From Hygrophila difformis (Eukaryota > Streptophyta > Magnoliopsida > Lamiales > Acanthaceae): 64,000 nt of DNA. The notes under the pieces were generated by a model. It saw only the letters and a program-made list of their open reading frames with translations, was not told the DNA's origin and ran no database searches. The stretch's first letter is position 1. Each line of letters begins with the position of its first letter. Where the stretch lies: assembly GCA_030278955.1 (NCBI GenBank), contig JAOANR010000003.1:25249227-25313226 (forward strand). The letters are read 5' to 3'. The translations under genes and the position numbers were made by a program. Shown piece by piece: positions 31,725 through 63,900 of the stretch.

Positions 31725-31762
31725 CAAAGTGAGTGTGTGTGTTACAAGTGAAGACCATCCCT

Positions 31763-31771
31763 CTATTTATA
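31763..31771 (-). promoter_or_regulatory. TATA box of the pregenomic RNA promoter of element C
   Basis: TATAAATAG on the minus strand, in the context ATCTATAAATAGAGGGATGG, a strong plant TATA box. A CCAAT-type motif lies about 40-50 bases upstream (ATTGG sense). It is followed by the CT tract and AATAAA, the order seen in 35S-type promoters. Confidence 0.75.
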
Positions 31772-34333: not shown

Positions 34334-34379
34334 TTTATCAGAAATTCAATAGCCTTTTTAGCAATATGATCTTGGAGTT

Positions 34380-40770: not shown

Positions 40771-41479
40771 AAAAGAAATGAATTCTGACCGGAGGAAAGT
40801 GAAGTTTGGTGAGAGGTCTGAAGATAGTAAGTATAGGAAATACTCTTTTTTTTAGTAACTAGTACAACCCGTCCGCGGTACCTGCGGGATGTAAATTTTA
40901 AAAAATAATAAATTGATATTAATTTTAAAATTATTATATAATTAATATTATTATTATATATCATAATAATTATTATAAAATTTTAATTATTATTTTAAGT
41001 ATTTTATATAAAAATTTATAAAATTTAAAATATTTGTAGTGTTTCTACAATAAAATATTAAATGTTGATTGGCTTGCATAACGCTTATCATTCTTTAACA
41101 TAAAAAATTACAAAATCCGATTGTTTTATTCAACGTGACGCCGCAACATATAAAAAAAAACCTTGTGTAAAAATTTGATATTCTATCAAACACGAAAACA
41201 TAATTTCTCTTAAGAATTTGAATATTAAAAATATTGTAAAAGTAATTTTTTATTTCGGAAAATATATTATACTTTGATATCGCAGTTGATACAGAGATAA
41301 AGGATGCTGATATGCATAAATATAATGAAAATATAATAATTTTTGTTTCCAATTTGAAATAACTTAATTATCACAATTCATATAATAATATAAATAATAT
41401 GAAACAAAATAGAAAATGGTCAATAATTCGACAATTCAATCTTCAGTCATATGGTTCGAATAATAGACTTATACTGCCA

Positions 41480-41960
41480 ACAATATTTTAACCCCCATGA
41501 GATTTTTTCTCATTCTTGTCGGAACCAATGTAATGTCAGTTAATACTTCACCCTCCAAGCCTTTTTTCACATTATTATCGGAACCAATGTACTGCTGATC
41601 AATACTTCATCCCCCGAGATATTTTTTTCTCATTATTGTCGAAACTAATGTAATGCCAATCAATTCTTCACCCTTCAAGATATTTTTCCACACTGTTGTC
41701 AGAACCAATATATTGTCAGTCAATACTTCACCCCCCGGATATTTTTTCCCATTCTTGTCGGAACCAATGTACTGCCAGTCAATACTTCACCTTCAAAGGC
41801 ATTTTTTCCAACTTCGTTAGAACCAATGTACTTTCAGTCAATGCTTCACCCTCCAGGAAAATTTTTTCCCATTTTTTGGCGAGCCAATATTTCACCCTCC
41901 AATACTCTATCATTAGATATGTACTGCCAACAATTTTCCACAGATCATCAGGAGAAGTTA
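41480..41960. repeat. Minisatellite array, first block
   Basis: Degenerate units of about 65-70 bp around the phrase GTCAATACTTCACCC, then TTTTTTCCCATT and GTCGGAACCAATGTACTGCC. Further blocks lie at about 42715-43090, 43433-43610 and 44045-44185, each next to a helicase fragment. Confidence 0.8.
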
Positions 41961-43191
41961 TGAAGCATGACATCTGAATATAAACAAATGGTTTCTAAAA
42001 ATATGTGCAGACCCAATGATACCTCATATAACACAATTGACCCTTTAACCTAATGTCTTATTACATGTGATGAAACAATATATAACTGATCGTGTCTAAA
42101 AACTGGATCTTTCATGAACACTCCAACATGCTTTAGAGATTGACCTTCACTCTGTTGATAGTCATAATATAACAAACAATTAGTGGAAACTGACGTCTTG
42201 AAAATTTAAGCGGTATATATGATCAAATGAGGTCAAACTCATCATGTAAAGTTATTTCGTCATGTAAAGTTAAAATAATTACCAATTTTGTGCTAGACAT
42301 CCGCCCGCGCGATGCACGTGGATGTGAAGTTTAAAAAATATATATAATAAAAAATAAAGAATATTGTTCTTCTCACTATTTAAAAGTAAAAGATGAAAGA
42401 AATAAGCACAAAATTGCATGTTATTAAAAATAAAACCACTAAAAGATTATATTACATAAACTTCAACTTTTTAATCTTATTTTTGAGGCATTTAATGTAA
42501 TATATTAAATTATATGCAGACCTAAATCTAAATACTGGACCTTCAGGAACACTCAAACATGCTTTAGACATTAACTTTGGCTCTTGTTGATGTATATAGC
42601 ATAACGAACGATTAGTGGAACACTGACGCCTTAAAAATTTAAAATGTATTCTATGATCAAATGAGGTCAAACTCATTCGTGGAATAAACACTCTATCTCC
42701 ACTGCTTTCGCGAGTCAATACTTCACCCTCAGGAAATTTTTTCCATTATTGTCGGAACCAATATACTGCTAGTCAATACTTCACCCCAGGATATTTTTCC
42801 CATTATTTTCGGAACTAATTTAATGCCAGTCAATACTTCACCCTCCAAGCCATTTTTCACACTATTGTCGAAACTAATGTACTAACAGTCAATACTTCAC
42901 CCCGGGATATTTTTCTCATTCTTGTCGAAACCAATGTACTTCCAGTCAATACTTTACCCTTCAAGACATTTTTTTCCTATTATCATCGGAACCAATGTAT
43001 TGCCAGTCAATGATTCACCCTCCAGGACATTTTTCCCATTTTTTCGCGAGTCAATACTTCACCCCAACACTTTATCATTAGATATGTACTGCTAACACTT
43101 TTCCATAGATCACCAGGAGAAGTTATGAAACACTACAAAAGAATAGAAACAAATGGATTTCTCAAAATAGGTGCAGAGGCACAATAATATC

Positions 43192-43440
43192 TCATATAAC
43201 ACAACTCACCCTTATTACACGTGATGCAACAATATGTAATTGACTGTGTCTAAAAACTGGATCCTTCAAGAACACTCCAACATGCTTTAGAGATTGACCT
43301 TGGCTCTTGTTGATAGTCATAGCATAATAAACAATTAATGGAAACTGACGTCTTAAAAATTTAAACGGTATTATATGATCAGATGATGTCAAACTCATTC
43401 TTGGAATAAGCACTCTATCTCCACTGCTTTCGTGAGTCAA
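43192..43440 (-). pseudogene. Helitron PIF1-type helicase, C-terminal fragment (best copy)
   Basis: 82 codons with GDRVLIPRMSL, PFKFLRRQFPLIVYYAMTIN and KSQGQSLKHVGVFLKDPVF. These are the last conserved motifs of the RepHel helicase (superfamily 1, motif V/VI region INKSQGQS). Three other copies nearby are more degraded. There is no start codon of its own and it is a fragment only. Confidence 0.8.
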
Positions 43441-44188
43441 TACTTCACCCCTATGACATTTTTTCTCATTCTTCTCGGAACAATGTACTCACAGTCAATA
43501 TTTCACCCTCCAGAATATTTTTTTCCCACTCTTGTCGGAACCAATGTACTGCTAGTCAATGTTTCACCCTCCAGGATATTCTTTCCCGTTTATTCGCGAG
43601 TCAATACTTTTCCAAAGATCACCAGGAGAAGTTATGAAACACGACAACATAATAGAAACAAAGGGATTTCTCAAGATAGGTGCAGAGGCCCAATGATATC
43701 TCATGCACTGCCAACACATTTCCACAGATCACCAAGAGAAGTTATGAAACACGACAGAAGAATATAAACAAATATATTTCTCAAAATAGGTGCAGAGGTC
43801 CAATGATATCTCATATAACTCAATTCACCCTTATTACACGTGATGTAGCAATATATAACTGACCGTATCTAAAAACTGGATCCTTCAGGAACACTCTAAC
43901 ATGCTTTAGAGATTGACCTTGGCTCTTGTTGATAGTTATAGCATAAAAAATAATTAGTGGAAACTGACATCCTGAAAATTTAAACGGTATTCTATGATCA
44001 GATCAGGTCAAACTCATTCGTGGAATAAGCACTCTATCTCCACTTTGGTGAGTCCATACTTCACCCCAAGTATATTTTTCACATTATTGTCAGAACCAAA
44101 GTACTGCCAGTCAATACTTCACCCCCCAGGATATTTTTTCCCCATTTTTATCGAAACCAATGTACTGTCAGTCAATGTGAATATCAAT

Positions 44189-44240: not shown

Positions 44241-44265
44241 ATTGAATGTAAAATATTTATTATTA

Positions 44266-44574
44266 TATGCAGGCCTAAATGAGTCAGCCCGCAGTCTGAC
44301 TGACCCATTTTAGGTCTCAATTGATTGAATATTGGTTATAGTAAGAAATACAATAATTTATTTTTTAAATAAGTATTATGATATAATCCACATAAAAAAC
44401 AACTTTATAAAACATTAAACATTGTAGGATCCTCTATTTCCAAAGCACAGTTATTAATTATAATCATTATGCAGCTATAGCTTATTGGAGTGGTACATAG
44501 AATGTACTAAATTAAATTTAAAGACAAAAAATTTAAATTATATGAACTTCAATTAGTTAACGGTATATCATTAT
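44266..44574. repeat. Tandem unit of about 330 bp, copy 1
   Basis: Starts at ATGCAGGCCTAAAT, contains TTGATTGAATATTGGTTATA, then ACAATAATTTATTTTTTAAA, and ends in the LINE-2 target. Copies 2-4 lie at about 51252-51576, 51577-51658 continued at 58271-58528, and 58529-58760. It contains a paralogous uninterrupted version of the element A insertion site. Confidence 0.8.
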
Positions 44575-44596: not shown

Positions 44597-46777
44597 ATGG
44601 AGAGGAAAGGTCCAGCCGGCGGTGTCAGGCAGTGGAGAGTGAGGCCACATTGGAGAGGAGAAGAACATGGTCGTAAGGGGCTCGGCGGGGGTGGTGTGGC
44701 CAGTAGAGGTCAGTCGGAGAGAAAGGAGTGGATTGGGGTTTTCATAGGGAATATTCCGATGAATGCGAACAAGGGACATTTGTTGAGCGAGATAGAGAAG
44801 GTTGCGAGGATTAGGGATTGGTTCTTCCCCAACAGGAACTGGACAGAGTTAGGTGTTAAGTTCGGCTTTTTTCGTTTCTGCCGGAAGGAGGAAGCGGAGA
44901 AGGTCATTCGGACTATGCATGGGAGACTGTGGGAGGGCTTGAAACTTAAGGCAAATTGGGCGTGGCCAAGCCGGAGAAGCCGTGACGTCGGAAAAGCCAA
45001 CAAAACAGGAGGACGGGCGTGGGGGGAAAAGAGATTTCTTTCCAGAATAGGAGGGGAGGGTAGTAATCAGCGGCAAACACAAGCTGCATGGAGAGATGAA
45101 CGCACATACGTGGAGGTGACTAAGATGGGAGGGAGGAGAAACGAGGCTGGAGATAAGGTGGCTATGGGGGCCACGATGAAGTTGAATGTTGTTCCTGAAA
45201 TGCTGGAATGGCTTAGACGATCGGCGCTGGTGGAACTCAAGAGTTTAGAAACATTACTATCGTTTCAAGAGTGGATGTACGGCGGACAACACATGGATGC
45301 TGACATTCGGTATGGAGGGGGGCAGTTGTTCGTGGTCCATTTCCCAAATTCAGAGGCTCGGGATAAATACCTAGCGGACGGGGGGGACCGATTTTTTGTG
45401 GAATGGAAACGCCGATGGGAGTCAGGGACAATTGTAAGGAAGCAATTGGTATGGATCTATATTTACGGATTACCATTGGAGACCTGGGGAGAAGATAGTT
45501 TCCAAAGAGTAGTGAGCAGATGGGGGAATGTCATAAGGGTGGATAAAGAGACGGCTGAACGTAAGAGATTGGATCGAGTCAAGATACTGGTGGCGCTGAA
45601 GGAAGGGGTCACTGTTCCATTAACTTCAGTTGTTCAAGTGGGTAGAATGGTGGCCAATGTCCAAATGGTGATAAATTACAGTGAAGCGGTGGTGATTGAG
45701 GATACTCAGGGGGAGGACAAGAGTGTAGACATAGATGATCGGAGTGATTTGAAAGTCTCAGGCGAAGGGCTGCCGGAGGGGATGAAGAACAGGGAGTCCG
45801 GGAGCAAGAATCATGGGGAAATGCAACAGTCGCCCATAGAGGAGTATGGGGTTTTGAGTCCGTTAAACAGGGCGGCTGGAACTCATAATTATCCTATGGT
45901 GGCGTGCGACTGCTATTCCCCGAAAGGGCAATGTAACAGTAGGGGAGGTGTAGATGTTCTCGCATGCAATGAGGATACTGAGCTGGCTTTAAATGGGCCC
46001 AGAGACGAGAGAGTGGAATTAATTATGGGCCCAGGTTTCAAGGGCCCAGTGGACGATTCGCAAAAGGGGCCTGTGGAGACCATTATAAATAATGGCCCAT
46101 TAACTCAAGACCAAATGGATAATACGTGTTGGGAGGGAAGCCCAGAAAAGTTAAGTATGAATACTGAAAACATATCGGAGCCTGAGGGGTCAAAGGGATT
46201 ACGGGAAGTAGAGGGTATTTGTGACAAGAACAACACGGAGACGGGGGAGCAACTCTTGACAGGAATAATTGGAGGGAGGGAGGGAGGAGTGGTGACAATG
46301 AGTGAAATATGTACTGGGGCAGGGTTGGGTGAGGTATCATTGGGGGTGTGCGAGTCCAGAGAAGGGTCTGGGTTGGAATCCAGTGAGGAGGCGCAAGGGG
46401 CGGGGCAAGGGAAGGAGGCCAGGGCCGAGGTAGGTGAACACCTGATGTGTCCAGAATTGGAAGCAGCAGAGGAGGCCATGGCCAGGTTACTAAATTGGAA
46501 GAAGGAGTCTAAGCGGAAGGGTCGGAAGAAAGGAGGTAATTTGTTACCGAAAGGAAGAAAAGGAACTAGGTGCAAGGTTGAACAGAAGAAACCCGAGGTA
46601 AATGGTTTTGCCAGATTGCAATTCACCACTGTTAGGGGGCCGAAGGGGGTTAGGCTGTTGGATCTCTCGAAGGCAGAGGCGCTGGTGGACTTTGCTGAAC
46701 TATTGGGGCTGGGCTGCCTTCAAGGGAGGGAGAGGGCAGTGGTGCGGGTGAGAAAGGATCAGATTGAGGAGTTATAA
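44597..46777 (+). CDS. LINE-2 ORF1: RRM-type RNA-binding protein
   Basis: An intact 726-codon ORF. A Gly/Arg-rich N-terminus (1-45) precedes an RRM at about 48-125, with IGVFIGNIP and VKFGFFRFC as RNP-like strands. A middle domain at about 240-375 has LFVVHFPNSEARDKYL, QLVWIYIYGLPLETWG and RLDRVKILVALKEG. A long, poorly conserved Gly/Glu-rich stretch follows, then a basic patch (KKESKRKGRKKGG) and a conserved tail (FARLQFTTVRGPKGVRLL). It should bind the LINE RNA and form the RNP. There is no CCHC knuckle, so it is the RRM (BNR-like) type of plant L1 ORF1. ORF2 begins 46 bases after its stop. Confidence 0.9.
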   Translation: MERKGPAGGVRQWRVRPHWRGEEHGRKGLGGGGVASRGQSERKEWIGVFIGNIPMNANKGHLLSEIEKVARIRDWFFPNRNWTELGVKFGFFRFCRKEEAEKVIRTMHGRLWEGLKLKANWAWPSRRSRDVGKANKTGGRAWGEKRFLSRIGGEGSNQRQTQAAWRDERTYVEVTKMGGRRNEAGDKVAMGATMKLNVVPEMLEWLRRSALVELKSLETLLSFQEWMYGGQHMDADIRYGGGQLFVVHFPNSEARDKYLADGGDRFFVEWKRRWESGTIVRKQLVWIYIYGLPLETWGEDSFQRVVSRWGNVIRVDKETAERKRLDRVKILVALKEGVTVPLTSVVQVGRMVANVQMVINYSEAVVIEDTQGEDKSVDIDDRSDLKVSGEGLPEGMKNRESGSKNHGEMQQSPIEEYGVLSPLNRAAGTHNYPMVACDCYSPKGQCNSRGGVDVLACNEDTELALNGPRDERVELIMGPGFKGPVDDSQKGPVETIINNGPLTQDQMDNTCWEGSPEKLSMNTENISEPEGSKGLREVEGICDKNNTETGEQLLTGIIGGREGGVVTMSEICTGAGLGEVSLGVCESREGSGLESSEEAQGAGQGKEARAEVGEHLMCPELEAAEEAMARLLNWKKESKRKGRKKGGNLLPKGRKGTRCKVEQKKPEVNGFARLQFTTVRGPKGVRLLDLSKAEALVDFAELLGLGCLQGRERAVVRVRKDQIEEL

Positions 46778-46822
46778 GTTGTACAGCCTGTGAGGTGGAT
46801 ATTGTGGGAGTTGCTTAGCATT

Positions 46823-49800
46823 ATGCGTATCATAACGTGTAACTTAAGGGGACTCAACGGGGGTGTGCGTAGGAGGGCATTGATGAGGCTACGCAAAAGA
46901 GACAAGCCATGGGTGTTGTGTCTCCAAGAGACTAAAATGGGGGAGGTGAGGGAAAGGTTAGTTTTTCGTATTTGGGGGTCGAAGGGGTGCAACTTTAGCT
47001 ATCAGGAAGCGATGGGCAACGCGGGCGGTCTATTGGCGATTTGGGATAGCGATTTATGCTCATTAGGGGTGGTAGATCAGGGTCACCATTTTTTGTGGCT
47101 CAAAGGATCGATTAAGGAGATGGACGGGGTAGTTAACATAATATGTGTGCACGCGCCGAACAATAGAAATTATAGGGCTGAGTTCTGGGCTTTGTTATTG
47201 AGTAAATGCGATACATCGAATGGGGAGTTCTGGTGTTTTGGGGGAGATTTCAATGCGACAGTAGCCGAGGGGGAGAGGAGAGGGGTTAGCACAGATTCAG
47301 GGTCGAGCAGGGACTTCCGGGATTTCATAAATCAGCTTGGTGTAGTAGATCTTCCAATGATTGGGGGGCAATATACTTGGGTGGGGAGGAGTGGTAGGGC
47401 TTGCAGCAGATTGGACAGGTTCCTTGTGTCGCCGGGTTGGTTATGTTTGAGGGGGTCTGTGGTACAGAAACGTTGTGACTCAGTTTTGTCGGACCATTAT
47501 CCGGTGATGTTGGAAGAGGGGGAGAAATCTTGGGGGCCGAAACCGTTTAGATTTTATAGCTACTGGATGGAGGAAAAGGGCTTTTAATGATTTAGTTAAC
47601 AAGATTTGGGTAGAGGGAGGGTCAGGTAGGGGGGATGGAGGTGGCGGGGAGGGCGATGTTTTCAATAATCTTCGGAGACTCAAGAGCGATATTCGCAAGT
47701 GGGAGGGGTATGGGGCTTCGGCATTAGAGGATCGGGTTAAAAGATTATTGGTGGAGATTGGGGAACTGGAGGAGAATTTGGGCGGGGTCGGGGACAGTGA
47801 GTCTATGAGAGCTGAATGGTTTCAAAAAAGAGCGGAATTGAAAAAGACATGGTTGGCGGAGGAGAGGAGATGGTGCCAAAAATCGAGAGTTCAATGGCTT
47901 AAAGAGGGGGATCAAAACACCAAATATTTTCATGCGGTCACAAATTTAAATCGACGTAGGAACTTTATTGGTTCGGTAAATAGTAACGGAGAGTTGATCG
48001 AGGGGCCTAAGGAAATTAAACAGGCAGCGGTGGAATATTTTAGAGAATTGTTCAAAAAACAGGATGGAGAAATTTTTAATGTCGATCAACTGGGGCTACC
48101 GAGGCTGGAGGAGGGCGACAGAGAATGGTTAGAAAGAGGTTTCGGGGAGGATGAAGTAAGGGAGGCGGTGTGGAGCTGCGACGGTAACCGAGCGCCGGGG
48201 CCGGACGGCTTTAATTTGAGATTTTTCAAGAAGTACTGGGATCGTGTTAAGGGTGACGTTATGGAGGTTTTTAAAGATTTTGAGAAGGAAGGCAGATTGA
48301 AGAAAGAGATGGGGGGATCCTTTATTGTTTTAATACGAAGGTAGAAAGGCCAACGGGTTTCCACGAATATCGGCCTATCTCACTAGTCGGGAGTCTTTAC
48401 AAAATGCTAGCTAAGGCTTTGGCCAGGCGGTTACAGGGGGTTTTAAGTGGATTAGTGGGACAATCACAAATGGCTTTCATTCGGGGAAGGCAAATCCTAG
48501 ATGGAGCAATGGTGGCAGCGGAAGTGGTGCATTCGACTCGTCAGGCTGGGCGCAGCGGCTTTGTAATTAAATTGGATGTCGCCAAGGCGTACGACAACGT
48601 ATCTTGGGAAGCTCTAATAAGGATCCTCGAGGCTATGGGATTCGGAACAAAATGGACTAAATGGGTGAAGGAATGCATAAGTTCGGCGTCGGCCGCTGTG
48701 TTGATTAACGGATCACCTTCTCAATACTTCAAAATGCAAAGGGGGTTGCGACAAGGTGATCCTTTATCCCCATATCTCTTTGTATTAATGGCAGAAATTC
48801 TTAACTGTATGATGAAAGCTGCGGTTGAAAGGGGTCTGATTAAAGGTTTAGCTGTGGAAGCAAGTGGGATGGCTATATCACATTTACAATACGCCGATGA
48901 CACGATCCTATTTTGTGAAGGGGATATTGGTCAGATTATAAGTATTAAAAGGATATTGAGATGCTTTTCATATACAACAGGACTTAAGATAAATTTTGCT
49001 AAAAGTTCATTGTTGGGAATCAACTGTCCTAGTTTATTGGAAAGGGAGGCTGCCAATTTACTTGGGTGTGGTGTGGGCAGCTGGCCATTGACTTACTTGG
49101 GGATTCCAATTGGGGGGAGGATTAACAGTGTGGGGATTTGGCAACCGGTGCTTGATAAAATCGAAAAGAAGTTGGCCGGATGGAAAAGGAAAATGCTAAC
49201 GCAAGCTGGTCGGTTATGCCTTATAAAATCGGTGTTGAACAGTCTATCTCTTTACTTCATGTCTATATTCAAAATTCCTAAGTCTGTGGCTGACAGGTTG
49301 GAATTAATTAAAAGGATGTTTTTTTGGAACGAGTGGGATGGGGTGAGAAAGATTCACACTATATGTTGGGAGAAGGTTTGTTTACAGAAAGAAGCAGGGG
49401 GGCTTGGCGTTTGGGACAGCCACCGTTTTAATCACGCCTTATTATTAAAATGGAGATGGCGGTTCGGGATGGAGAAGTCTTTGTGGAAGGAGATGATAGA
49501 CAAAAAGTACTACATGGGTAAGTCTCCACTGATCCCAAATACGATACAAAGCAGGTCTATGTGGGGTAGTGTGAGTAAAGCCTGGGAGAGGTCAAACGCT
49601 GGTTTCTCTATTGGAGGTTTTAAAGTTCAGGTGGGCAATGGCGCTAGGACTCAATTTTGGCAAGACGTTTGGGTGGAGAGGGGGCAGCCTCTAAAGGTCC
49701 TATTTCCAAGAATTTTTACTTTGGCTTTGAATCAAACAGGAAGGATCTCAGACTTTGGAGATTGGAGTGGCCTAAATTGGGAATGGAATATTCCTCTCCG

Positions 49801-51007
49801 AAGGCGGCTTTTCGATTGGGAGGTGCAGGTTTGGCAAGATTTCCTGCGGGAATTAAAGAGCCAGTGTATTAAACGATTCTTAGAGGATAAGGTGGTGTGG
49901 TTGAATGAGGAAGGAGGAGAGTTGTCCACGAAATCAGGGTGGGTTAGGTCTATTGGGAGAATGTCAGGTGCTTGTGTAGGGACGGAAATGGCGCGGTTGT
50001 GGAATAGTCTGTGGGGGATAAAAATACCTATGAAAGTAAAGCTATTGGCTTGGAAGGTGGCCAACAATGCAGTCCCGGTTAAGGAGCTGTTACTAAAGAG
50101 GGGATGCGTAGTTGGTGGTGATGCATTATGCGCCTTATGTGGGAGTGAGGTGGAAAGCGCAGATCATCTTTTCTGTAAGTGTGTTTTCGCATGCTCATTG
50201 TGGTATCAAATGATCGAGTGGTTTGGATTTTCTTGTGTTCTCCCTGGAAGTGTGGGTTTCCTGTTTGCTTGGTTAATGGAGGCATGTCCGGTTATGGACA
50301 AAAGAATGCAATGGCGCTTCACAGGTCTCGCGATAGTATGGATTATCTGGAAAAGTCGCAATGGCAGAGTTTTTCAGGGACAGACGGTAAATGCAAAGGA
50401 GGCGGCAGAAGAGGTTAAATGGAGGACTAGCTTGTGGTGGAAGATCGCGGTTAAGGAATGTGCTCAGGACATTGGCAATATGGAGATGAGATTTCCGGAG
50501 GGGTTGTCTCAGCCATCTAATATGCGACATAGAATCCCAAGAAGGGGGTTGACATGGGAGAAGCCTGAAGAAGGTTGGTGGAAAGTTAACACCGACAGAT
50601 CATCAATGGGGAATCCGGGGCCTGCTGGAATCGGAGGTATAATCAGGGACGACAAGGGTGTTGTAATATTCACTCTATCGGATTTTATTGGTGTTGCGGA
50701 TTCTAATGAAGCTGAGGTAACAGCGGTAAGCCGGGTGTGTGCTGCTCTGCTGCGAGATCAGGGATTTCCTCTACCGAAAATTGTGTTCGAATGCGACTCC
50801 TCAAATGTGGTGAAATGGTTGTGTCACCTGGAGAGTTTCCCATGGAGATTTCGCCACCTGCTCAAACCGATTACAGACGTCTTGAAGTTCTCAGGGGGAT
50901 CTAAAGTGCTACATATTCTCAGGGAGCGTAATCATATGGCGGACGATTGGGCTCGACAGGGAGCTTCAGCGGCGGGAAAGGTAGAGGTTTGGCATCATCA
51001 GTTTTAA
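46823..51007 (+). pseudogene. LINE-2 ORF2: endonuclease, reverse transcriptase, RNase H (two frameshifts)
   Basis: The start ATG at 46823 gives MRIITCNLRGLNGG. The endonuclease (to about 47587) has QETKMGE, GGDFNAT and LSDHYPV. An extra T near 47585 ends that frame. The next frame runs to 48344, with KEGDQNTKYFHAVTNLNRRR and NRAPGPDG. A second frameshift near 48335 precedes the last long frame (48404-51007, 867 codons) with QMAFIRGRQILDG, QGDPLSPYLFVLMAEILN, the catalytic YADDTILFCEG, a zinc-like CALCGSE...HLFCKC, and RNase H (NTDRSS, NEAEVTAV, FECDSSNV, MADDWARQG). All catalytic residues remain, so only two single-site frameshifts separate it from an intact ORF. Confidence 0.92.
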
Positions 51008-51658: not shown

Positions 51659-51669
51659 TTATTTTAAAA
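51659..51669. repeat. Target-site duplication of element A, left copy
   Basis: TTATTTTAAAA, identical to 58260-58270. Equivalent unduplicated sequence is found in the neighbouring tandem units. Confidence 0.9.
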
Positions 51670-51790
51670 GGGGTAATGTTTAAAAAGGGCCACCAGAAGG
51701 AGCCATTTCCAATTTTAGGCCATTATAACTTGAATTATGAAAATAGGCCATCAGAAACATAACTTGAAGGAATTTAGGCCATAAGGACTC
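51670..51790. repeat. Element A left terminal inverted repeat
   Basis: Inverted match to about 58140-58259. GGCC boxes lie at about 51688, 51718, 51746 and 51777, roughly 30, 28 and 31 bp apart. Confidence 0.88.
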
Positions 51791-51928
51791 ATTTGAAAAG
51801 TTAACTGAACTTAACAACTTTTCATTTCTTTCATTTGAACCCCAAATAGTTTGACTTTAGACATCTTAGTCCTCTTTCAATATCCTTAATTTTTCATTAT
51901 ATAAATGACACCCAAGGCGCTTGAAAAT

Positions 51929-51940
51929 TGGTATCAGAGC
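51929..51940 (+). other. Primer-binding site of element A (tRNA-iMet)
   Basis: TGGTATCAGAGC followed by CTAGGTTT, complementary to plant tRNA-iMet, about 260 bases inside the left end and 188 bases before the first ORF. Confidence 0.88.
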
Positions 51941-52127
51941 CTAGGTTTTATTGAAGAACATATTAATTATATTAGTTATATATGGTGAAAAATTAATTAT
52001 TTAATGGATTCATTTAATTTGAAACCAACGAGTTATTTCCAAATTTTGAAAATAAAAAAAAAAAATTTCCAGAGGAAATTCTTGAACTTGTCTATAAGAC
52101 AAGATTTTATTAACAGTAATTTCTTTC

Positions 52128-52517
52128 ATGAAAATGAGAGGAACTGACTGGAAAGAAATTGATCCGGATAGCTCTAAGTTATCACACGACTTAAGAGAAA
52201 TCCAAAAAACGATTCAAGATTATGGTAACCGGGTATTAATTTTACCTGGAAAAATAGATAACTTGAATCAATCAACAGAAGAGATTTTGAAATTGTTTCA
52301 AGATCTAAAGAAAGAGATTTTGAATCTGAAATTTGACATTTCGGATATCAAGAAAAGGCAGAAGGATATCCCTGGATCTTCCAAGAATAACCAAGCCAAT
52401 ATTAGAGATGCATTCGGACCAGTACAAGCTTTACATCAAAAGGGTAAAGCAACTATGGTTCCAAAGCAGAAATCACAAGAAGAGCTTATGATCGATCTCC
52501 TGAAAACAGTCGAATGA
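52128..52517 (+). CDS. VAP-like coiled-coil protein of element A
   Basis: 129 codons, intact. A central coiled coil (ILKLFQDLKKEILNLKFDIS, then DIKKRQKDI) is followed by a basic, Gln-rich tail. Position as the first ORF after the primer site, size and coiled coil agree with a caulimovirid virion-associated protein. Its TGA overlaps the coat-protein ATG (ATGA), which suggests termination-reinitiation. The assignment is by position and form, not sequence identity. Confidence 0.6.
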   Translation: MKMRGTDWKEIDPDSSKLSHDLREIQKTIQDYGNRVLILPGKIDNLNQSTEEILKLFQDLKKEILNLKFDISDIKKRQKDIPGSSKNNQANIRDAFGPVQALHQKGKATMVPKQKSQEELMIDLLKTVE

Positions 52518-53962
52518 GTGTTTCTAGGGCAGATCTATCAGATCTACAAGAATTAGCAGAATCATTTTCCCAACTTGGGATTATGGATCTGGTTAATGTA
52601 AAACCCAATGAAGTTCTTCAATTGGGTTATACGGAAGGATCAAGATCCAACGTGACCCACGATGGACCGCCTGATGTCCCAATGAGAGAAAGTACAGACT
52701 TCTACATGAACCGGTATCCTGAGGTGCATCTCAATGCAAGACGAAACCCAGGACGGAACCCAAGTAGAGCACCAGAATCCACACCGTGGGCCAAGACGAT
52801 GTTACAACCATTAAATCCATATGGCATAACACTGAACCTCGACGTTATCGACTTCCGAAACATCGGAGACCTGATCGACGAATGGGTAGCTTCAATGAAG
52901 ATTGCAGCAACCACCCTGGAACTCGATAAAGAAAACTTTGTCAGATTGATAGAGCTAAGTCTCGAAGGATCGGCAAAGCTGGGATGGAAAAACTCCACGG
53001 CTGCTTTAAAAGAGCAAATACTCGAAGGAGAATCCAAAAGCACAATCTGTGAAAGATTTGGCCTCTTATTCAAAACCCATTTTGTAGGAGATGGTTATTT
53101 TGAAGAACAGAGAGCCGAAAAAATCAAGGTCTATACCCAAGCACTATTGGGTATGGAGTTAAGAAGTATTTGCGCAGTAGACGAATACATCTACTGGTTT
53201 CGTAAATACTGTTTTCGGAGTGAGATGAGAGCTGAAGTAGAATGTCCCATGTTCTTTGCAAAGATCTGCAGCCCATGGAGAGAGATGTTGATCCAATCGT
53301 ACACAGTACCCCCTGGTACAGTAGACTCAATAGCCCGGAGGATGTCCTTCTTAAAGGATAAGCTCAGGGAATGGTGTCAACAGGCAGCAGCCCAAAAGAA
53401 CATCAAGAGAGTCAGAGGTAAAATAAAAAGAACTCCTATTTGCTGTGAAAATAATGATTTTCCAACAATTATAGGAGAATCAGAAGAAAAGAGAAGAAAG
53501 AAGAAGAGTCGAGGCTCATACAGTAGGAGTTTCAGAAGACCTCCATTCCGAAGAAGAAGAGCATGGTGGTCCAAGGGCAAGGCCAGATCATACAAAACTG
53601 GAAAAAGAACGGGAACGGCGAAGAGTTCATCCCAAGGTTCAACTAGCTCAGCAGCAAGGAGCACGGGGAGAACGACGTCCAAGAGAACATTCAGACGAGC
53701 CCATACAAGAGCCAACGAAAGTTTCAAGGACTGCAACTGTTGGAAGTGTGGAGCCAAAGGTCATATCTCACCCGATTGCCCTCAGAATCGTGAGATACGA
53801 AGGTACGAGGCCACGCAGGATATCGTGGAAGCGGTCTACCATGGAAAACTGGTACCAGTCTATCAATTTGAAGACATCCCCTCGGATGAAAGCATCTACG
53901 AGGAAGAATTAAGAAGTGACTTGGACTCATATTCAGATGGATCTTCAACCGAGTCTGACTGA
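52514..53962 (+). CDS. Coat protein of element A
   Basis: An intact 482-codon ORF. The N-terminal part is disordered and acidic. The capsid core (about residues 110-290) includes NIGDLIDEWVASMKIAATTL, LEGSAKLGWKNSTAALKEQI and YIYWFRKYCFRSEMRAEVEC. A very basic Arg/Lys-Ser stretch at about 315-400 is followed by the CCHC knuckle CWKCGAKGHISPDC (about 411-424) and an acidic tail ending in SDLDSYSDGSSTESD. This organisation is that of caulimovirid capsid proteins, where the basic region and knuckle bind pregenomic RNA. It is the best preserved ORF of the element. Confidence 0.88.
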   Translation: MSVSRADLSDLQELAESFSQLGIMDLVNVKPNEVLQLGYTEGSRSNVTHDGPPDVPMRESTDFYMNRYPEVHLNARRNPGRNPSRAPESTPWAKTMLQPLNPYGITLNLDVIDFRNIGDLIDEWVASMKIAATTLELDKENFVRLIELSLEGSAKLGWKNSTAALKEQILEGESKSTICERFGLLFKTHFVGDGYFEEQRAEKIKVYTQALLGMELRSICAVDEYIYWFRKYCFRSEMRAEVECPMFFAKICSPWREMLIQSYTVPPGTVDSIARRMSFLKDKLREWCQQAAAQKNIKRVRGKIKRTPICCENNDFPTIIGESEEKRRKKKSRGSYSRSFRRPPFRRRRAWWSKGKARSYKTGKRTGTAKSSSQGSTSSAARSTGRTTSKRTFRRAHTRANESFKDCNCWKCGAKGHISPDCPQNREIRRYEATQDIVEAVYHGKLVPVYQFEDIPSDESIYEEELRSDLDSYSDGSSTESD

Positions 53963-54900
53963 AGAGGACATGATTCAGACCACTGAAAACCTGTCTGGAT
54001 TCTTTTCAAGGATGACGATCTCGAATCGAACCATCGAAAGAATAATGCGACAAGATTCCAACCTCAGCCCATATGACGGATTCAGAACTGGCGGGATTGG
54101 ACGATTTCTTAACCAGATGTGACTCAACCAGAGAAGACATAACATCATCTACAAGGTAAGTTCAGGTGAGTTCGCAATTCCTATGGAACTTACTTGTAAT
54201 GTGATGGATATACAATTAATTCCTAAAGAAGAAATTCTTGAGGAATTAAGTAGAATGAAAAAGGAAATCGCCATTACTATGAAATGGATCCACATAGGAG
54301 TCATTGAAGTAGTAATTAAGGCAACCTTCAAAGAAGGCATTGATTCTGAATTACATCTATCAGTTACTGATAGAAGAATCAATAACCTTAGAGATGGTCT
54401 TCTTGGAACTATGGTAGGAAATTTGTATGCTGGGAAGTTAATATTTGACATACATCCTAGAATTTCCTATAACTTAGCTGACAAAGATTTTATTAGGGTT
54501 CTAACCCTTCATCAGGATTTTAAAAAAAAGATCTGATGAAAGAAGGGAACATGCCATATTCTATAACTTATAGAATCTCTTATGCACTTTCCAATAGTCA
54601 TCATTCTGACTTATTTCTCAGGAAAGAATATATAGAAATTCCTAGAATTTTCAAGGAATTTGCTAAAGTCATGACTCCAAATCTACCCAAATTCCAAGGT
54701 TAGGAGGAGTAGACATACAGATAAGAGATCATCCAATTCTAGACAGATCAACGAGTGCTAGAATTGAGTATGCAAGCCGTATGTCTTTTTCGGAAGATAG
54801 AATTATGGCATATAAAGGAAAGGAGTTCATCAAAGATTTAACTCCTCAATCCATTGGGGTAGATAATATAAAAATTAAATGCCCTGAAGGATGGAAAAAA
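53916..54900 (+). pseudogene. Movement protein of element A (several frameshifts and stops)
   Basis: It overlaps the end of the coat-protein ORF. Pieces are readable in changing frames: MIQTTENLSGFFSRM near 53970, LDDFLTRCDSTREDITSS near 54090, and the core at 54183-54536 with KWIHIGVIEVVIKATFKEG, ELHLSVTDRRINNLRDGLLG and YAGKLIFDIHPRISYNLADK, the central strands of the 30K superfamily. The C-terminal part continues to about 54900 (SITYRISYALSNSHHSDLFL). At least three frame changes make it non-functional. Confidence 0.75.
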
Positions 54901-55160
54901 TACGAGTAATATTTGACATCACTGAAAAGATTAACCGTTTTTCATGTGATGATTTATACTACTTGCAGCAGCCATCAATTGGAACCTATGAAGGAACAAT
55001 TGAAATTGCAGGACACGAGATCAGAGTCTTAGGTACTGCCGGAAAAGATAATGGGGTTATGATTTTGGGATTAAGTTTTCTCGAAAATCATAAACCATGG
55101 GTAAGAAAGGATAATGATACAGAATTTAATCTGAAGGGTCACACCATCATAATTAAATGA
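54891..55160 (+). pseudogene. Truncated aspartic protease of element A
   Basis: An 89-codon frame with the distal half of a caulimovirid protease (GVMILGLSFLENHKPW). The catalytic D-S/T-G motif is absent, so the N-terminal half was deleted. Directly after it the polymerase resumes far downstream in RT. Confidence 0.6.
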
Positions 55161-55172
55161 CAAGCCCAGCTT

Positions 55173-55980
55173 ATATCTCAAGTCGAAATATTAAAGAGCA
55201 TATTAAACATCTTGAAATATTTTCTGATGCATGTCACAGGGAAGGTTTAGTTCTCTCTGAGAAAAAAGGCCACTATCGCTGCTAACAAAATTGAATTCTT
55301 AGGAATTCAAATTGATGAAGCAGGGATAGAGTTACAGGAACACATTGTGGAAAAAATCCGCAATTTTCCTGATATACTAAAGGACAAAAAACAACTTCAA
55401 AGTTTCTTAGGAGTTGTAAATTTTGCGGGTATGTTTATTAAAGACCTTGCAAAATATAGAAAGGATTTTAGACCACTCCTGAAAGAGACTGAAAGCTCTA
55501 GATGGAAATGGGAAGAAATCCATACAAAGAGAATTCGCGAACTAAAGCAAGTCTGTAATAGCTTGCCAAAACTCGCGATACCTCAAGATGAGGATGAGCT
55601 GGTAGTCTATACAGACGCCAATGATTTTCGATGGGCAGGAGTGCTCATGAGAAAAACAACTACGGGTCAAGAACCCTGTAGATACACAGGAGGGTTGTTC
55701 ACTGAACAACAAGCCAAACTTTGGCATATTAACGAGAAGGAATTCTTTGCAGTATGGAAAACATTTAAAAAATGGCCTTTATTCTTACTTGCAAAGAAAT
55801 TTGTATTAAAAGTTGATAATACTAATATTAGGGCTTTTCTAAAAAAATAAACTTGAATCAAAAATTGAAAAAGCTCGTATTATCAGATGGCAAGCTGAAT
55901 GTCAATATTATACTTATGATATTGATGTTATAAAATCTCATGAAAATGTTCTTGCAGATTTCTTGACAAGAGATGGAAGC
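55173..55980 (+). pseudogene. RT C-terminal tail and RNase H of element A
   Basis: It begins within the RT thumb-side sequence (EHIKHLEIFSDACHREGLVL), after which one extra base breaks the frame near 55267. NKIEFLGIQIDEAGIELQE then continues into RNase H (55347-55850): VVYTDANDFRWAGVLM, NEKEFFAVWKTFKKW and LKVDNTNIRAFLKK. Another shift near 55850 precedes WQAECQYYTYDIDVIKSHEN and LADFLTRDGSI. The palm domain with YIDD, normally several hundred codons, is missing. The element cannot encode its own reverse transcription. Confidence 0.85.
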
Positions 55981-57265
55981 ATTTGAAGCTGATTCCATCA
56001 TTACGAGATTCAGGCACCTCAGAGAGAACCTAGAGGAGCTATCAAAGCATTTTGGACTGCTCGAGATAAATGCACGAGCAGCTGGCCAAATACAACAGAG
56101 TGATGTGGACATGGTCCGCAACAATATACGAACCTCCCATATAGCAATGACGGCACTATGGGAAACAGTATTAGAGCCAATCAGGAAAGCATCATCTTCC
56201 CTGGTAAACAAAGAGAAATGTGCCCAAAAAGCTAAAGTGGTCACATATGAAGAAGCAGATTCAAGCACTGCTTCAAAGGAACCATTGTCGGATACCGACA
56301 AAAATGTTGAGAATGAGGAAAGTCACATTTCCGAAAGCTCAAGTCAACCCACAGCCTCTGGGGTAAAAGAGGAAGAAATTAACCTTAGGCCCATGACATG
56401 CACCTCTAAGGTTAATTTAGATGAGAAGGTCATATCTGCGGCCTGGGTGGACTACCAAGGAAAATGAGAATAACTGGTTTCCAAAAGGGGAATTAACCCG
56501 AGCAAAACAGTAATCGAGACATCCGGGAGATACAACAGGGTCTGGATGCTCGAAGGATCGAAGCCAGAAGAGGTTCGAAAGTGGTATGACTTTGGAGCAT
56601 TAGCATCTGTTAATACAACATCACCTGGATTTCCGGAAATCGAAAAACTTCCGGGATGGATAAGTAGCGCGGTGCACGAATTATGGCAGAACAACCCGCA
56701 CCTGCAAAGAGGAGATATTCTGGAGCTTAAGTTCATTTCAGCGGCACCGGAGATAGTTGGAAAAGGTTCTTATCCAGTCTTTCAATTTATTAAATTACAG
56801 AGACCTGATATGATTGCCTTCAACAGAGTTAAGTCTATGGATGAGAAGGCACCATTGGTATCTTCAATCAGCGAAGATGAAATCTCCACCCGACGAGCAT
56901 GGGGATTCTGGGTCTGTCTCATTGAGATGGAAAAGGTTAAATATCCGTTTAAAATATTCTCAAACAATTTAAATGGATCGTTCCTGGTTTATTCTTTAAC
57001 AGGGAAAAGCACAAAGTTTGCGGAAACCTCTTTCGAAAAGAAGAGGTTACTCATCTGGAAAAACAAATTGCCAGCAACCGAGTCTACCAGAAAGAAGGCA
57101 TGCAACATGATGCATGTTGGCCAATGGGATAACCATATATGCCCATATTGTGCAGAACGGGAAAAACCCCTATTCGGTACAAAGATCCGGGTAATCCAGA
57201 AGAAATCCGGATCCGAACAGGACAGAGGGAAGAAACATCCAAAAAACTTTCACATGCCAAAGTGA
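55973..57265 (+). pseudogene. TAV/viroplasmin-like protein of element A
   Basis: A 430-codon frame overlapping the end of pol, with two close in-frame stops at about 56465-56473. The N-terminal part is helical (FRHLRENLEELSKHFGLLE) and then acidic/Ser-rich. The middle (about 56546-56830) has WMLEGSKPEEVRKWYDFGAL, PGWISSAVHELWQNNPHLQ and ILELKFISAAPEIVGKGSYP, which fits the caulimovirid translational transactivator core. The C-terminus has a CX2C motif (NHICPYCAEREKPLFG) and a basic tail. TAV allows polycistronic translation of the pregenomic RNA and forms inclusion bodies. Confidence 0.7.
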
Positions 57266-57480
57266 GAACAGCTGGATGTAAGAGAAAAAGAGGTGTTCGG
57301 CAATACTCTATAATTGGAAGCCGACAAAGAAAGTCTAGAGTCGTTGGCAGCAAATGGCCGACAAGAGAAGGTGGAAAGTTGATAAAAAAAAGATGCCACC
57401 CGAGGACAATAATACAGCAGGATAATAATGTAACCAGCTGGAATCCAAAGCAAGTGACGAACGCAGTGACGTCACAATAA
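57139..57480 (+). other. Overlapping basic open frame at the end of the TAV-like ORF
   Basis: 113 codons in another frame, overlapping the last third of the TAV-like ORF and running into the promoter. The product would be very basic (KVRTAGCKRKRGVRQ). It is probably a shadow of the Lys/Arg-rich TAV tail, although the part after 57265 is open on its own. Confidence 0.25.
57455..57471 (+). promoter_or_regulatory. as-1-like enhancer element of element A
   Basis: Two TGACG motifs with seven bases between them (starts 12 bases apart), 53 bases upstream of the TATA box. This spacing is that of the as-1 element of 35S-type promoters, bound by TGA bZIP factors. Confidence 0.75.
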
Positions 57481-57523
57481 ATTAAAGAGTGTTTGGGATC
57501 CGTGATTGAAGTCCGCGGACGCC

Positions 57524-57530
57524 TATAAAA
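57524..57530 (+). promoter_or_regulatory. TATA box of the pregenomic RNA promoter of element A
   Basis: TATAAAA in the context CGCCTATAAAATGGAGAAG, downstream of the as-1-like element. Transcription should start near 57555. Confidence 0.78.
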
Positions 57531-57743
57531 TGGAGAAGTTTGAAGCAGATGGAAGGCATCAGAAATCCTCCCATCTCTTCAAAATAATAAGTTGTATTCC
57601 TTTCCTGCAAAATTTCTTTTCTGTATTTGTTTTTCATATGGGGTCAATCCCCCAGAGTCAAGCATCCTCATGTATGAGGAGCTAAGTGTCCGTCTTCTCC
57701 ATTAGGAGAAAAAATATTTCTGTAATATTTTTAATATTTCTTC

Positions 57744-57749
57744 AATAAA
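57744..57749 (+). terminator. Poly(A) signal of element A
   Basis: AATAAA, about 190 bases after the predicted start, preceded by TTTTTAATATTTC. This is the caulimovirid arrangement, in which the signal is bypassed on first passage. The same sequence context is present in the centre of element B (near 4070-4125). Confidence 0.72.
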
Positions 57750-57960
57750 ATCAAGGCTTCCAGTATTGCAAATATTCCGATAAATTAGTTAAAACCTATA
57801 TCTATACCTTGTTACGTCCTAAGGTAGGAAACGAAATAGGACTGTGCTGTTTGTTGCTGAAGGAACCAAGAATCGGTGAACCATCAGTTGCGGCTGCGTG
57901 GTTGGAGGAAGTCCGTAAAATCCCGGAGCTTAGGAAACCCGGCAGCTAGGCGGTCGAACC

Positions 57961-57970
57961 CAAGGTATGA
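57961..57970 (+). promoter_or_regulatory. Possible 5' splice site in the leader of element A
   Basis: CCCAAG followed by GTATG fits the plant 5' splice-site consensus, between the poly(A) signal and the right TIR. Element C has CTCAAG followed by GTATG at the equivalent place (minus strand, near 31512). Not proven. Confidence 0.4.
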
Positions 57971-58139
57971 AATTTAGTGCTTAATTTTATTATCGGAAGT
58001 ATGATGGGCGGTTATTGGACTAAATTATATGCAAAATCTAAAGTTGGGGTAAAAGGGGAATAAGGCTAAAGTTAGAAGTCAACTGTTGGGGTGAAAGTGT
58101 AATAAATCAAAAGTTGGTAGGGTCAATTGAAATTTGAAA

Positions 58140-58259
58140 AAGTCAAATGGCCTAGATCTGGTCAAAGCTAGTTTCTAATGGCCTAAAATCAAAAATGAAG
58201 TTTTAATGGCCCAAAACTGGAATAGGTGCCTTCTCATGGCCTATTTTATTAATTACCTC
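58140..58259. repeat. Element A right terminal inverted repeat
   Basis: Inverted match to 51670-51790. GGCC boxes lie at 58149, 58180, 58208 and 58238, spaced 31, 28 and 30 bp, mirroring the left end. Confidence 0.88.
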
Positions 58260-58270
58260 TTATTTTAAAA
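58260..58270. repeat. Target-site duplication of element A, right copy
   Basis: TTATTTTAAAA, identical to 51659-51669. Confidence 0.9.
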
Positions 58271-60980: not shown

Positions 60981-63900
60981 TTAAAACCATTGTTCAACTT
61001 TTTGCTCTCCTTGAGCTCCAAGACGAGCCCAGTGGTCAGCCAACTCGTTCCTTTCCCTTAGGATATGTTGGATTCTAACCTCCCCACCAAATTGGAAAAG
61101 CGACACTATGGGATCCAGAATGTTATGGAATCTCCAAGGGGCAGTACCTGGTGTTTGCAACCAGCGGACGACATTGGAAGAATCGCATTCGAAAAGTATT
61201 TTAGGAAGTGGAAAGCCTTGGTCTCTTATGATCGCCTTGCACACTCGACTTATGGCTGTGATTTCCGCTTCGGTAGAGTCCGTGTTACCAAGTGAGTCAG
61301 ACAGTATGAATATAACTATTCCAGCCTCATCTCTTATAACTCCGCCTACACCCGACTGTCCCGGATTGCCAATAGAGGATCTGTCCGTGTTTACTTTCCA
61401 CCACCCCCGGCATGGTCTTTCCCAAAATAGTCCGGCCCGGTTTGCCTTGGAATATTTGATTACATGTCGAGACAAGTTCCCAGGGAAGCTTGAGTCCAAG
61501 CCGTTCATGTCAACACCTGTCCCCCCAGATTCCAATTGCCACCACAAATTAATTCTCCATCTAAGCTCTTCTGCAGCCCCTTTAATATCCAGCTGCTGTC
61601 CTTTGAAAATTATTGCATTTCTTTGTTTCCAAATTGACCATATTATTGCCACTCCCATCAATGTCCACGCCCTCCAGTTGCTGTTCTTCCTGGAATTCCC
61701 GAACCACCAGTCGATCAATGTATGAGACGAGCCAGGTATTGCCCATTCTACCCCGAACCAGGCCACCCCTTTATACCACAATTTGTTCATCTCTTCACAT
61801 TGGCAAAATAGGTGGTCGATGGACTCGGTGGCCCTTCCACAACAGGCACATGTTACATCAGCTCCCTGTAGAACTCCCCTCCTTACAAGTGTTTCTCGGA
61901 CAGGTAAGGCTCCTTGTACTAATTTCCAAGTTAGTAGCTTAGCTTTCATGGGACATTTAATTTTCCAAAGGATACTCCAAAACCAACCTCTGTCAGAAGC
62001 AGCATCGCCTGCCACGCATGGCCAGCATGATCTGACTGTGAAAGTTCCATTGCTGGTCTTGCGCCATCTGATCCGATCATCTATATACCGACTTATTTTG
62101 TGTGAACTGATTAGCTGCGTCAGATTATTCCATACTTCAACTTCCCAATCAAATAGCGGCCTCCTCAAACATATGTTCCATTCCCACTCAAAGCCTATCC
62201 ACTTGCCACACTCAGCAATCAGGCTGTTCTTGTTCACCGCCAGGGCATAAACTCTAGGAAAAAGGTCCTTCAGTTTATACCCACCCTCTATCCACTTGTC
62301 ATGCCAGAAACGCGATTTGCCTCCATTTCCCACCTGAATTATAAAGCTGCTGTCTGGTGCCCCAAAATCCTCCCAAGCTCGACAAATCTGTCCCCAAAGC
62401 GATCTCCCAGGTTTTGGATCGGGTATCAATGGGGCTTCTCCACCGTAGTATTTGGCGTCGATTACATTCTTCCATAAGCCAACTTCTTCCCCAAAACGCC
62501 ACCTCCATTTTAACATTAATGCAGCATTGAAATTCTGAATATCCCTCACACCGAGTCCGCCTTCGTTTTTTTGTTTACAGATTGCTCCCCACCCAATGGT
62601 GTGAAGCTTTCTAGCCCCGTCCCATTCGTTCCAGAAGAACCTCCTTTTGATGCTCTCCAATCTGTCTGCCACCGACCTTGGGGCCTTGAAGATCGAAAGA
62701 TAGTAAACAGGAAGGCTTGATAGTACTGACCTTAATAAGCATAGTCTGCCGGCTTGTGTCAACATCCTACCCTTCCTTCCACTTAGCCTCTTTTCCACCT
62801 TATCAAGGACCGGTTGCCACAGAGCCACTCCATTTGTTCTCCCTCCTATTGGAACGCCAAGGTATTTGATAGGCCAAGACCCAACAGCACAGCCCAATAC
62901 CGCTGCTGCATTGCTAATTTCCTCATCAGAGCAGTTAATTCCATTAATGCAGCTCTTACCATAGTTAATTATGAGTCCAGTAGACAGTGAAAGACAGATG
63001 AGAATCCTCTTGAGAAGTACAATTTGGTGAACATCGCCTTGGAAGAATATTATTGTGTCGTCTGCATACTGAAGGTGTGAGATTTCCGGACCATTTATTC
63101 TTACTTCCAATCCTTTGAACAACCCAGCCTCCCTCGCCCGCACCATCAATCTGTTAAGCACTTCCGCCACTAGAATAAAAATGTAAGGGGAGAGGGGATC
63201 CCCTTGCCGAATGCCTTTTTGTAATTTACAAAACTCAGTAGGGGAACCGTTGATTAGTACTGCTGCCGAAGCTGAGGAGAGGCACTCTTGCATCCAGTCA
63301 ATCCATACACTGCCAAACTCCATTGCCTTCATCACCCGGATTACCGCCTCCCACGACACATTGTCGAAAGCTTTAGCGAAGTCAAGTTTGACGATGAACC
63401 CTTTCCTGCCAGTCATCTTTGTGGAGTGGATCACCTCAGATGCCACCAAAACTCCGTCTAGAATCTGTCTCCCCTTAATAAAGGCCATTTGGGACTCCCC
63501 TACCAATCCGCCGACAACTGCCTTTAGCCTCCTGGCTAGAACTTTTGCAACTATTTTATAGATACTCCCCACCAAGGAGATGGGTCGGAATTCGCTGAGA
63601 GACAGCGGGTTTTCCACTTTAGGGATGAGCCGTATAAAAGAACTCCCCACACCCCTAGGTAGCCTGCCGTCTAGTTCAAAGTTGTGGAAGACTTCCATTA
63701 CATCCTTCTTGACCACACTCCAATATTTCTTGAAAAATCCCAAGTTGAAGCCGTCCGGCCCCGGGGCTCTGTTCCCGTCGCAGTCCCATATTCCTTCCCG
63801 GACCTCCTCCTCCGAAAATCCCCTGGCCAACCAGAGCCTGTCCGTTTCTCCCACTGTTGGGAAGCCAATGCCAGCGAAATCAAAGACTTCCTCATCTTGT

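Follow-up and report, generated by a model that had tools for sequence, protein, structure and literature searches.

How does a plant pararetrovirus without an integrase come to lie in a chromosome between ends like those of a DNA transposon? The question is raised by a 64,000-nucleotide stretch of the Hygrophila difformis genome (GenBank assembly GCA_030278955.1, contig JAOANR010000003.1, positions 25,249,227 to 25,313,226, forward strand; here called the window), in which a caulimovirid insert, element A, occupies positions 51670-58259 between two exact copies of TTATTTTAAAA. From the comparison of element A with its relatives in the 915-Mb assembly, we consider it probable that a caulimovirid lineage was inserted through Mutator-type terminal inverted repeats (TIRs) by a transposase supplied in trans.

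Borders of element A

The borders are defined by the following features.

51659-51669, unstranded: target-site duplication, left copy, TTATTTTAAAA (exact match)
51670-51897, plus strand: left TIR with four GGCC boxes 19, 49, 77 and 108 from the tip (inverted alignment, box positions)
58029-58259, minus strand: right TIR with four GGCC boxes at the same distances as in the left TIR (inverted alignment, box positions)
58260-58270, unstranded: target-site duplication, right copy, TTATTTTAAAA (exact match)
44241-44560, plus strand: paralogous empty site, the flanking repeat without element A (alignment across the junction)

The exact 11-bp duplication described in the initial annotation was borne out, as TTATTTTAAAA occurs on the plus strand of the window twice, at these two borders, and nowhere else. 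The inverted repeats described there are also real, but about 226 bp long rather than about 120 bp: inverted alignment of 51672-51897 with 58029-58257 showed 70% identity and a local score of 112, compared to a maximum of 36 among 1000 dinucleotide shuffles and to 19 for the same ends in direct orientation. No significant direct match between the ends of element A was detected, the best left-right matches being inverted. When the flanks were joined with one copy of the duplication, they aligned across the junction to 44241-44560, with a few small gaps at the junction and likewise elsewhere. The flanks are part of a local repeat, of which 44241-44560 is another copy.

Long terminal repeat (LTR) retrotransposons (Metaviridae) share with element A reverse transcription and a primer-binding site near the left end, but element A has neither LTRs nor an integrase, its repeats are inverted, and the duplications in its family measure 9-11 bp, whereas 4-6 bp are given for LTR retrotransposons (PMC12440569).

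Tips and duplications of the family copies

A search with the left TIR led to 1316 first-look candidates, of which 40 were scored; 39 of these, including A, match from base 1 and one from base 3. The 20 best other copies were fetched, each with about 9.4 kb downstream. All 20 have the left tip (its first two bases changed in L069), and in 12 the right TIR reaches the tip, with an altered final base in L075. Complete copies, of which there are seven, are 7.73-7.86 kb long. The exact 23-base left tip occurs at 23 places in the genome, and its backward control at none. As a side observation, two pairs of same-orientation exact left tips, each pair about 3.1 kb apart, were seen at C6:22764100-22820005, where inserts may stand in tandem or have been duplicated.

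A second, younger group was reached via the leader core, a stretch near the right end (see below), with 40 scored out of 1828 candidates. The TIR tip was reached in all eight fetched right ends, and the left tip lies inside the fetched window in five of them. Over their common stretch, seven of the eight show 96-99.7% identity to one another; L087, with a right TIR of the A type, shows about 90% to the others. A third sample was independent of the TIRs in its choice and consisted of eight places hand-picked from 39 non-self matches to the reverse transcriptase (RT)-RNase H region, with 601 bp read around the expected right end. A GGCC-box TIR was present in six: L109, L110, L111 and L116 align to the last TIR base, L112 ends two bases short, and L115 aligns to position 218-220 of 234, its tip being read by eye. 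A further TIR variant, ending in CATTTCCTC or nearly so, could be seen in L110, L111, L115 and L116. At least 108 coat matches were listed in the genome.

For the duplications, 18 copies with both ends were available, namely A, the 12 copies with a right tip and five of the younger group. Exact duplications were found in 14, measuring 9 bp in 12 copies, 10 bp in one and 11 bp in one (A). When left flanks were paired with the right flanks of other copies as a control, none of 306 combinations gave 8 bp or longer. One of the 9-bp cases, L064, counts for little, being located in a TA run. A+T makes up 91% of the 14 exact duplications, and 13 of them have T as first base. The initial annotation had asked whether other copies begin and end at the same base with duplications of 9-11 bp; both were observed, and the terminal structure is a property of the family and not of one odd copy. 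Its 11 bp hold for A, which is the exception in a family where 9 bp is the norm.

Two accidental origins of these shared borders were considered. Segmental duplication is disfavoured by the left flanks: in a comparison of A with the 20 copies, these were unrelated to each other except for two short inverted repeat matches (119 and 100 bp). It is also barely conceivable that the virus is a fragment in or beside an old Mutator-like element (MULE), its ends not being its own. Nested insertions do occur here, as a long interspersed nuclear element (LINE)-like element splits a foldback element in the window, but the left tip common to 20 of 20 copies and the right tip common to 12, on many chromosomes and with unrelated left flanks, speak against such nesting.

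Coding capacity and selection

The following coding features were assigned in element A.

52128-52517, plus strand: ORF1 (open reading frame 1), a small coiled-coil-like frame (weak sub-threshold coiled-coil family matches only)
52514-53962, plus strand: coat protein ORF with a CCHC zinc knuckle (PF22909, E 8.8e-5, below cut-off; PF00098, above cut-off)
55168-55183, unstranded: junction of an internal deletion of about 1.2 kb (comparison with full copies)
55347-55850, plus strand: RNase H part of the polymerase (PF17919, E 8.4e-15; PF17917, E 3.3e-14)
55973-57265, plus strand: putative viroplasmin/transactivator (TAV) region, in A two separate frames, 55973-56467 and 56546-57265 (fold match of homologues)

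Element A is an internally deleted copy of a genome with the order small ORF, coat, movement protein, protease-RT-RNase H and TAV-like protein, which we take to be like that of Solendovirus and Cavemovirus as far as gene order alone is compared. Among the 40 scored genome places, the deletion junction is spanned only by A itself. Because A lost about 1.2 kb there, the movement protein frame was not seen in A, and the movement protein and RT domains were detected in the copy L066 instead. Frames of full copies were read from stop to stop. L066 encodes a 30K-type movement protein (PF01107, E 1.4e-31) and a 612-codon frame with an A3 protease (PF02160), RT (PF00078) and RNase H (PF17919/PF17917), without integrase. 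No Pfam integrase or transposase was detected in the coat, movement protein, polymerase, TAV-position and ORF1 frames (the coat of A; L066, L065 and L061). The earlier description of a caulimovirid genome lacking an integrase therefore agrees with the coat and RNase H ORFs of A, with the domains of L066, and with the frames of all three copies.

At the TAV position, L065 has a 432-codon frame without Pfam match. A structure model of this family, built from 24 database homologues (mean pLDDT 62.6), gave 14 viral structure matches with E<=0.001 and modest TM-scores; 12 of them are named, all as caulimovirid transactivator, inclusion-body or ORF VI proteins. Among solved structures (PDB) there was no match with E<=0.001. 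The matches suggest that the 432-codon family is a viroplasmin/TAV-like protein.

One explanation for the systematic integration would be an unrecognised integrase of the virus itself, e.g. ORF1 or a frame of 145-152 amino acids overlapping the end of the coat gene, both of which had no family match above the curated cut-off. However, these candidate frames are short, ORF1 is coiled-coil-like (as also seen in L061), the sole long unnamed frame matches TAV models, and the lengths of duplications and TIRs match the Mutator kind. We regard a virus-encoded integrase as very unlikely.

The coat ORF of A gave 88 homologues, and homologues of lineage proteins are abundant in Sesamum and present in Phlomoides, Salvia, Perilla and Phtheirospermum. 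Coat alignment revealed no relative in viral contigs. A 17-mer of the leader was detected in four viral contigs without further BLAST similarity to the window, and its 48 matches in prokaryote contigs were taken as chance.

Selection was analysed from ratios of nonsynonymous to synonymous substitution rates (dN/dS) in pairs with at least 150 codons, dS >=0.05 and dN <0.12; the pairs are not independent, having loci in common. The TAV frame of L076 was clearly wrong, with dN >0.2 to every other locus. Median dN/dS was 0.32 for the coat protein (34 pairs, 11 loci), 0.24 for the movement protein (58 pairs, 14 loci), 0.24 for the polymerase (51 pairs, 14 loci) and 0.14 for TAV (74 pairs, 14 loci), and none of the 217 filtered pairs reached 1. 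These values show that all four frames are under purifying selection. Unfiltered close pairs are sometimes at or above 1, such as L061-L065 for TAV (2.80, with one synonymous change) and L062-L063 for the coat protein (1.09); such scattering around and above 1 is as expected for young inserts freed from selection. It seems that the lineages used their own proteins for replication.

Signals at the two ends and evolution of the TIR arms

Candidate signals for reverse transcription and transcription were located at both ends of element A.

51929-51941, plus strand: TGGTATCAGAGCC, candidate primer-binding site (exact motif)
57467-57474, plus strand: TGACGTCA, promoter motif (motif search)
57523-57530, plus strand: CTATAAAA, putative TATA box of the pregenomic RNA promoter (by eye and motif search)
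57723-58082, plus strand: leader core common to the foldback family (70% to 4078-4451; inverted, 78% to 3843-4053)
57743-57757, plus strand: CAATAAAATCAAGGC, putative polyadenylation signal (by eye and motif search)

At the left end the TIR is followed by TGGTATCAGAGCC, which we take to be an initiator-tRNA-Met primer-binding site. Its distance from the left tip is kept within 7 bases in 17 of the 20 fetched copies and within 3 in 16; it is not at its place in L070, L073 and L074. The right end reads, by eye and motif search, TGACGTCA (presumably an as-1-like box), TATA box, polyadenylation signal, leader core and right TIR. The exact 8-mer CTATAAAA was not found at the corresponding place in the 20 other copies, and the exact 15-mer CAATAAAATCAAGGC is present in A alone of 21 sequences, with a near match in the foldback element.

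The full set of four GGCC boxes, spaced from the tip as given above, occurs in both arms of 6 out of 16 copies, A included; in the other 10, one or two boxes are absent or boxes lie one base further in. Divergence between the A-type and the younger group amounts to about 5% for the genes and about 25% for the TIRs, and the leader core is 92% identical. The two arms have changed in concert, with 7-9 columns per copy pair (median 8.5) compared to 2.4 in shuffles, and 39 of 40 copy pairs, which are not independent, stood at <=5 of 500 shuffles. Eight A-type copies out of 11 (all but L070, L075 and L079) and all five of the younger group entered this test. By eye, both arms of A have GGCCANNAGAA as boxes 1 and 3, whereas boxes 1-3 read GGCCATAACAA in both arms of the younger group, one right-hand box being AGCCATAACAA. 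The joint change of boxes and arms fits putative protein-binding sites; base pairing within an RNA leader would account for the concert between arms only.

This observation bears on the possibility that the TIRs are nothing more than the two arms of the large leader stem-loop in the pregenomic RNA, and that viral DNA, after a break at the tip of the hairpin, was end-joined into the chromosome with accidental duplications. The TIRs are placed between the polyadenylation signal and the primer-binding site, the part in which the leaders of caulimovirids fold, and concerted arm changes are compatible with base pairing. End-joining would not be expected to give exact 9-bp duplications in 12 of 18 copies with none in the mis-paired control, and the co-change of boxes inside one arm (GGCCATAACAA, once AGCCATAACAA) is better explained by protein-binding sites than by pairing alone. 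As an account of the insertions we consider it extremely unlikely; the leader stem-loop as such may well be true alongside insertion by a transposase.

Foldback elements with similarity to element A

The leader core also occurs in a short foldback element of the window.

3516-4582, unstranded: foldback element, left and central part, with two inverted copies of the viral leader core (self-comparison)
12641-12750, unstranded: foldback element, right end, separated from 3516-4582 by a LINE-like insertion

The inserted LINE-like element (4583-12640) has endonuclease, RT, zf-RVT and RNase H frames. The foldback copy itself is mostly palindromic, has no ORF of 150 codons or more, and is bounded by the 10-bp duplication TGTTAAAATA at 3506-3515 and 12751-12760. 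A search with its end gave 1906 first-look candidates, and the 40 scored were all >=98% identical. Ten copies were fetched, nine with both ends and a length of 1.22-1.25 kb. Exact 10-bp duplications were found in 8 of 10 (the window copy included), with none in 90 mis-paired controls; L107 has one mismatch, and L099 fits only after a shift of the right end by 7-8 bases. The foldback elements were presumably moved by an enzyme in trans. Taken together for virus and foldback family, chance as the origin of TIRs and duplications was ruled out by the shuffles and the mis-paired flanks. A separate foldback family, L061:109-1282 (1174 bp) and L097:1-1139, has TIRs 75-77% like the viral TIRs; inside the element beside L061 no further match to element A was found.

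Such derivatives would also be produced if a MULE had captured a caulimovirid genome and multiplied it as a Pack-MULE by DNA transposition only, with the viral genes as passengers. The TIRs with 9-11-bp duplications, the deletion derivatives L062 (2.9 kb) and L070 (1.5 kb), which keep both tips and exact 9-bp duplications, the 10-bp duplications of a foldback family without long ORFs, and the 1174-bp foldback beside L061, whose TIRs are 76-77% like the viral ones with nothing else of A, are all in line with this. On the other side stand the purifying selection on four viral genes in the filtered pairs, the primer-binding motif near its place in 17 of 20 copies, and the second subfamily, whose genes are ~95% similar but whose TIRs are only ~75%. 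As the four genes are under purifying selection, DNA transposition as passive cargo alone is therefore insufficient, and we consider capture of this kind unlikely.

Proposed mechanism and candidate enzyme

The proposal that element A arrived by a transposase-like reaction is supported by the shared tips, by exact duplications in 14 of 18 copies and by their lack in the control; entry of the virus seems to resemble that of a cut-and-paste transposon and not random repair, the route commonly supposed. In the mechanism that we favour, the lineage would have propagated through a pregenomic RNA that was started at the promoter close to the right end and was then reverse-transcribed. In a lone linear insert this promoter points out of the right end and no full-length pregenomic RNA would be expected; full pregenomic RNA would therefore need a circle (or tandem) with abutting TIRs. 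In the circle, the abutted TIRs would lie between polyadenylation site and primer-binding site as arms of a leader stem-loop. A leader stem-loop between these two sites is also present in other caulimovirids. A Mutator-type transposase from host MULEs may then bind the repeats, cut at the tips and insert the DNA with a 9-bp stagger, and the short foldback elements, as non-autonomous derivatives of the right end, would be mobilised likewise. The enzyme class is inferred to be Mutator-type because TIRs of about 226 bp and 9-bp duplications are found as in maize Mu, for which TIRs of ~215 bp and duplications of 9 bp are described (PMC2774946).

As a tentative extension, which we regard as quite possible, the virus could be a pararetrovirus with an obligatory-looking proviral stage, whose leader has evolved or borrowed sites for a host transposase so that each infection can plant a copy, the same repeats perhaps serving as leader stem-loop and as transposon ends.

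Candidate enzymes were sought among the MULE transposase domains of the genome, which are abundant; 150 of 2395 candidates were scored. The commonest group among these consists of many identically scoring 353-codon frames and includes L097:2613-8001 and L098; the two copies are 98% alike, with a left tip near TTAGGGTGCAATCACCC, and this family was perhaps recently active. A Sesamum latifolium gene model, P0069, joins a piece of MULE transposase to a piece of the lineage coat, but proved a weak lead to the enzyme. The whole model gave matches from about residue 173 on, mainly to the coat part (108 listed rows), the transposase part alone found distant relatives only (34% identity in the top-scoring row), and the fusion is possibly a gene-model artefact over neighbouring elements.

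Several observations weigh against insertion by a host transposase as outlined. No transposase with matching TIRs was found, and the one MULE family compared (two copies, left ends only) has an unrelated tip. Abutted exact A-type tips, 0-25 nt apart, do not occur in the assembly. The deletion copies L062 and L070, with both tips and duplications, also fit plain DNA transposition. Divergence between the groups also extends to non-coding parts outside the TIRs, with the promoter region mostly 78-80% and the primer-site stretch 82-83% identical. Not all copies conform: 8 of the 20 chosen by the left TIR have no right tip in the fetched stretch, two of the eight internal-gene places (L113, L114) are unrelated DNA without TIR in the 601-bp window, and four of 18 copies lack an exact 9-11-bp duplication (L079, 9 bp with one mismatch; L075, 6 bp; L082, 6 bp after a 2-base shift; L069, none). 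Finally, it is not certain that virus and foldback family share an enzyme, because the duplications are 10 bp in the latter and 9 bp in the virus.

Other elements in the window

A second, different caulimovirid lies on the minus strand at 31500-39040, with a coat domain (PF22909, E 3.9e-25) at 36021-37067 and RNase H at 33581-34333; self-comparison of the window gave no DNA match between it and the genes of element A. About 30790-31288 reads N. An LTR retrotransposon with long LTRs is marked by direct repeats of about 2.57 kb (16064-18635 and 24512-27077, 97.5% identical) around RT and RNase H frames. Two more LINE-like elements were found at 44597-51007 and 60981-63854, and 41470-44180 is an array of diverged 57-61-bp tandem repeats with larger nested duplications. 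SAGA-Tad1 is the sole host gene recognised in the window, closest to Paulownia (68%) and Sesamum (67%), which places the host in the Lamiales or near them.

Relation to known systems

Endogenous caulimovirids, e.g. florendoviruses, have the same coat, movement protein, protease-RT-RNase H and TAV-like genes, a tRNA-Met-like primer site and no integrase. Published accounts attribute their ends to repair, often at (TA)n, and comparison with empty sites revealed small gains or losses of sequence (PMC4241990), whereas tips, TIRs and 9-bp duplications are fixed in the family described here. A 2023 review terms the mechanism of caulimovirid integration speculative in its section 3.1, with break repair and retrotransposon machinery in the lead (PMC10377300), the filler DNA view is retained elsewhere (PMC13308828), and an integrase-like motif is mentioned for a petuvirus (PMC12904150, PMC8256270). 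Among the open-access papers listed in literature searches, judged by title and abstract beginning, none described a caulimovirid with TIRs and target duplications. With maize Mu and other MULEs the family shares long TIRs, 9-bp duplications, deletion derivatives and foldback relatives; unlike these it carries a reverse-transcribing virus under selection and, in L061, L065 and L066, no recognised transposase gene. Teratorn of teleosts is a piggyBac-herpesvirus fusion, in which a virus has become a genome parasite via a transposon (PMC10175614). Virus class and transposon superfamily are different there, and in the family described here the enzyme is apparently not carried along.

If insertion by a host transposase is true, another kind of virus-transposon fusion would stand beside Teratorn, and one caulimovirid lineage would gain a definite and testable route into the chromosome via a DNA transposase. 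This would also help to account for an integrase-free virus that numbers more than 100 copies in a single genome.

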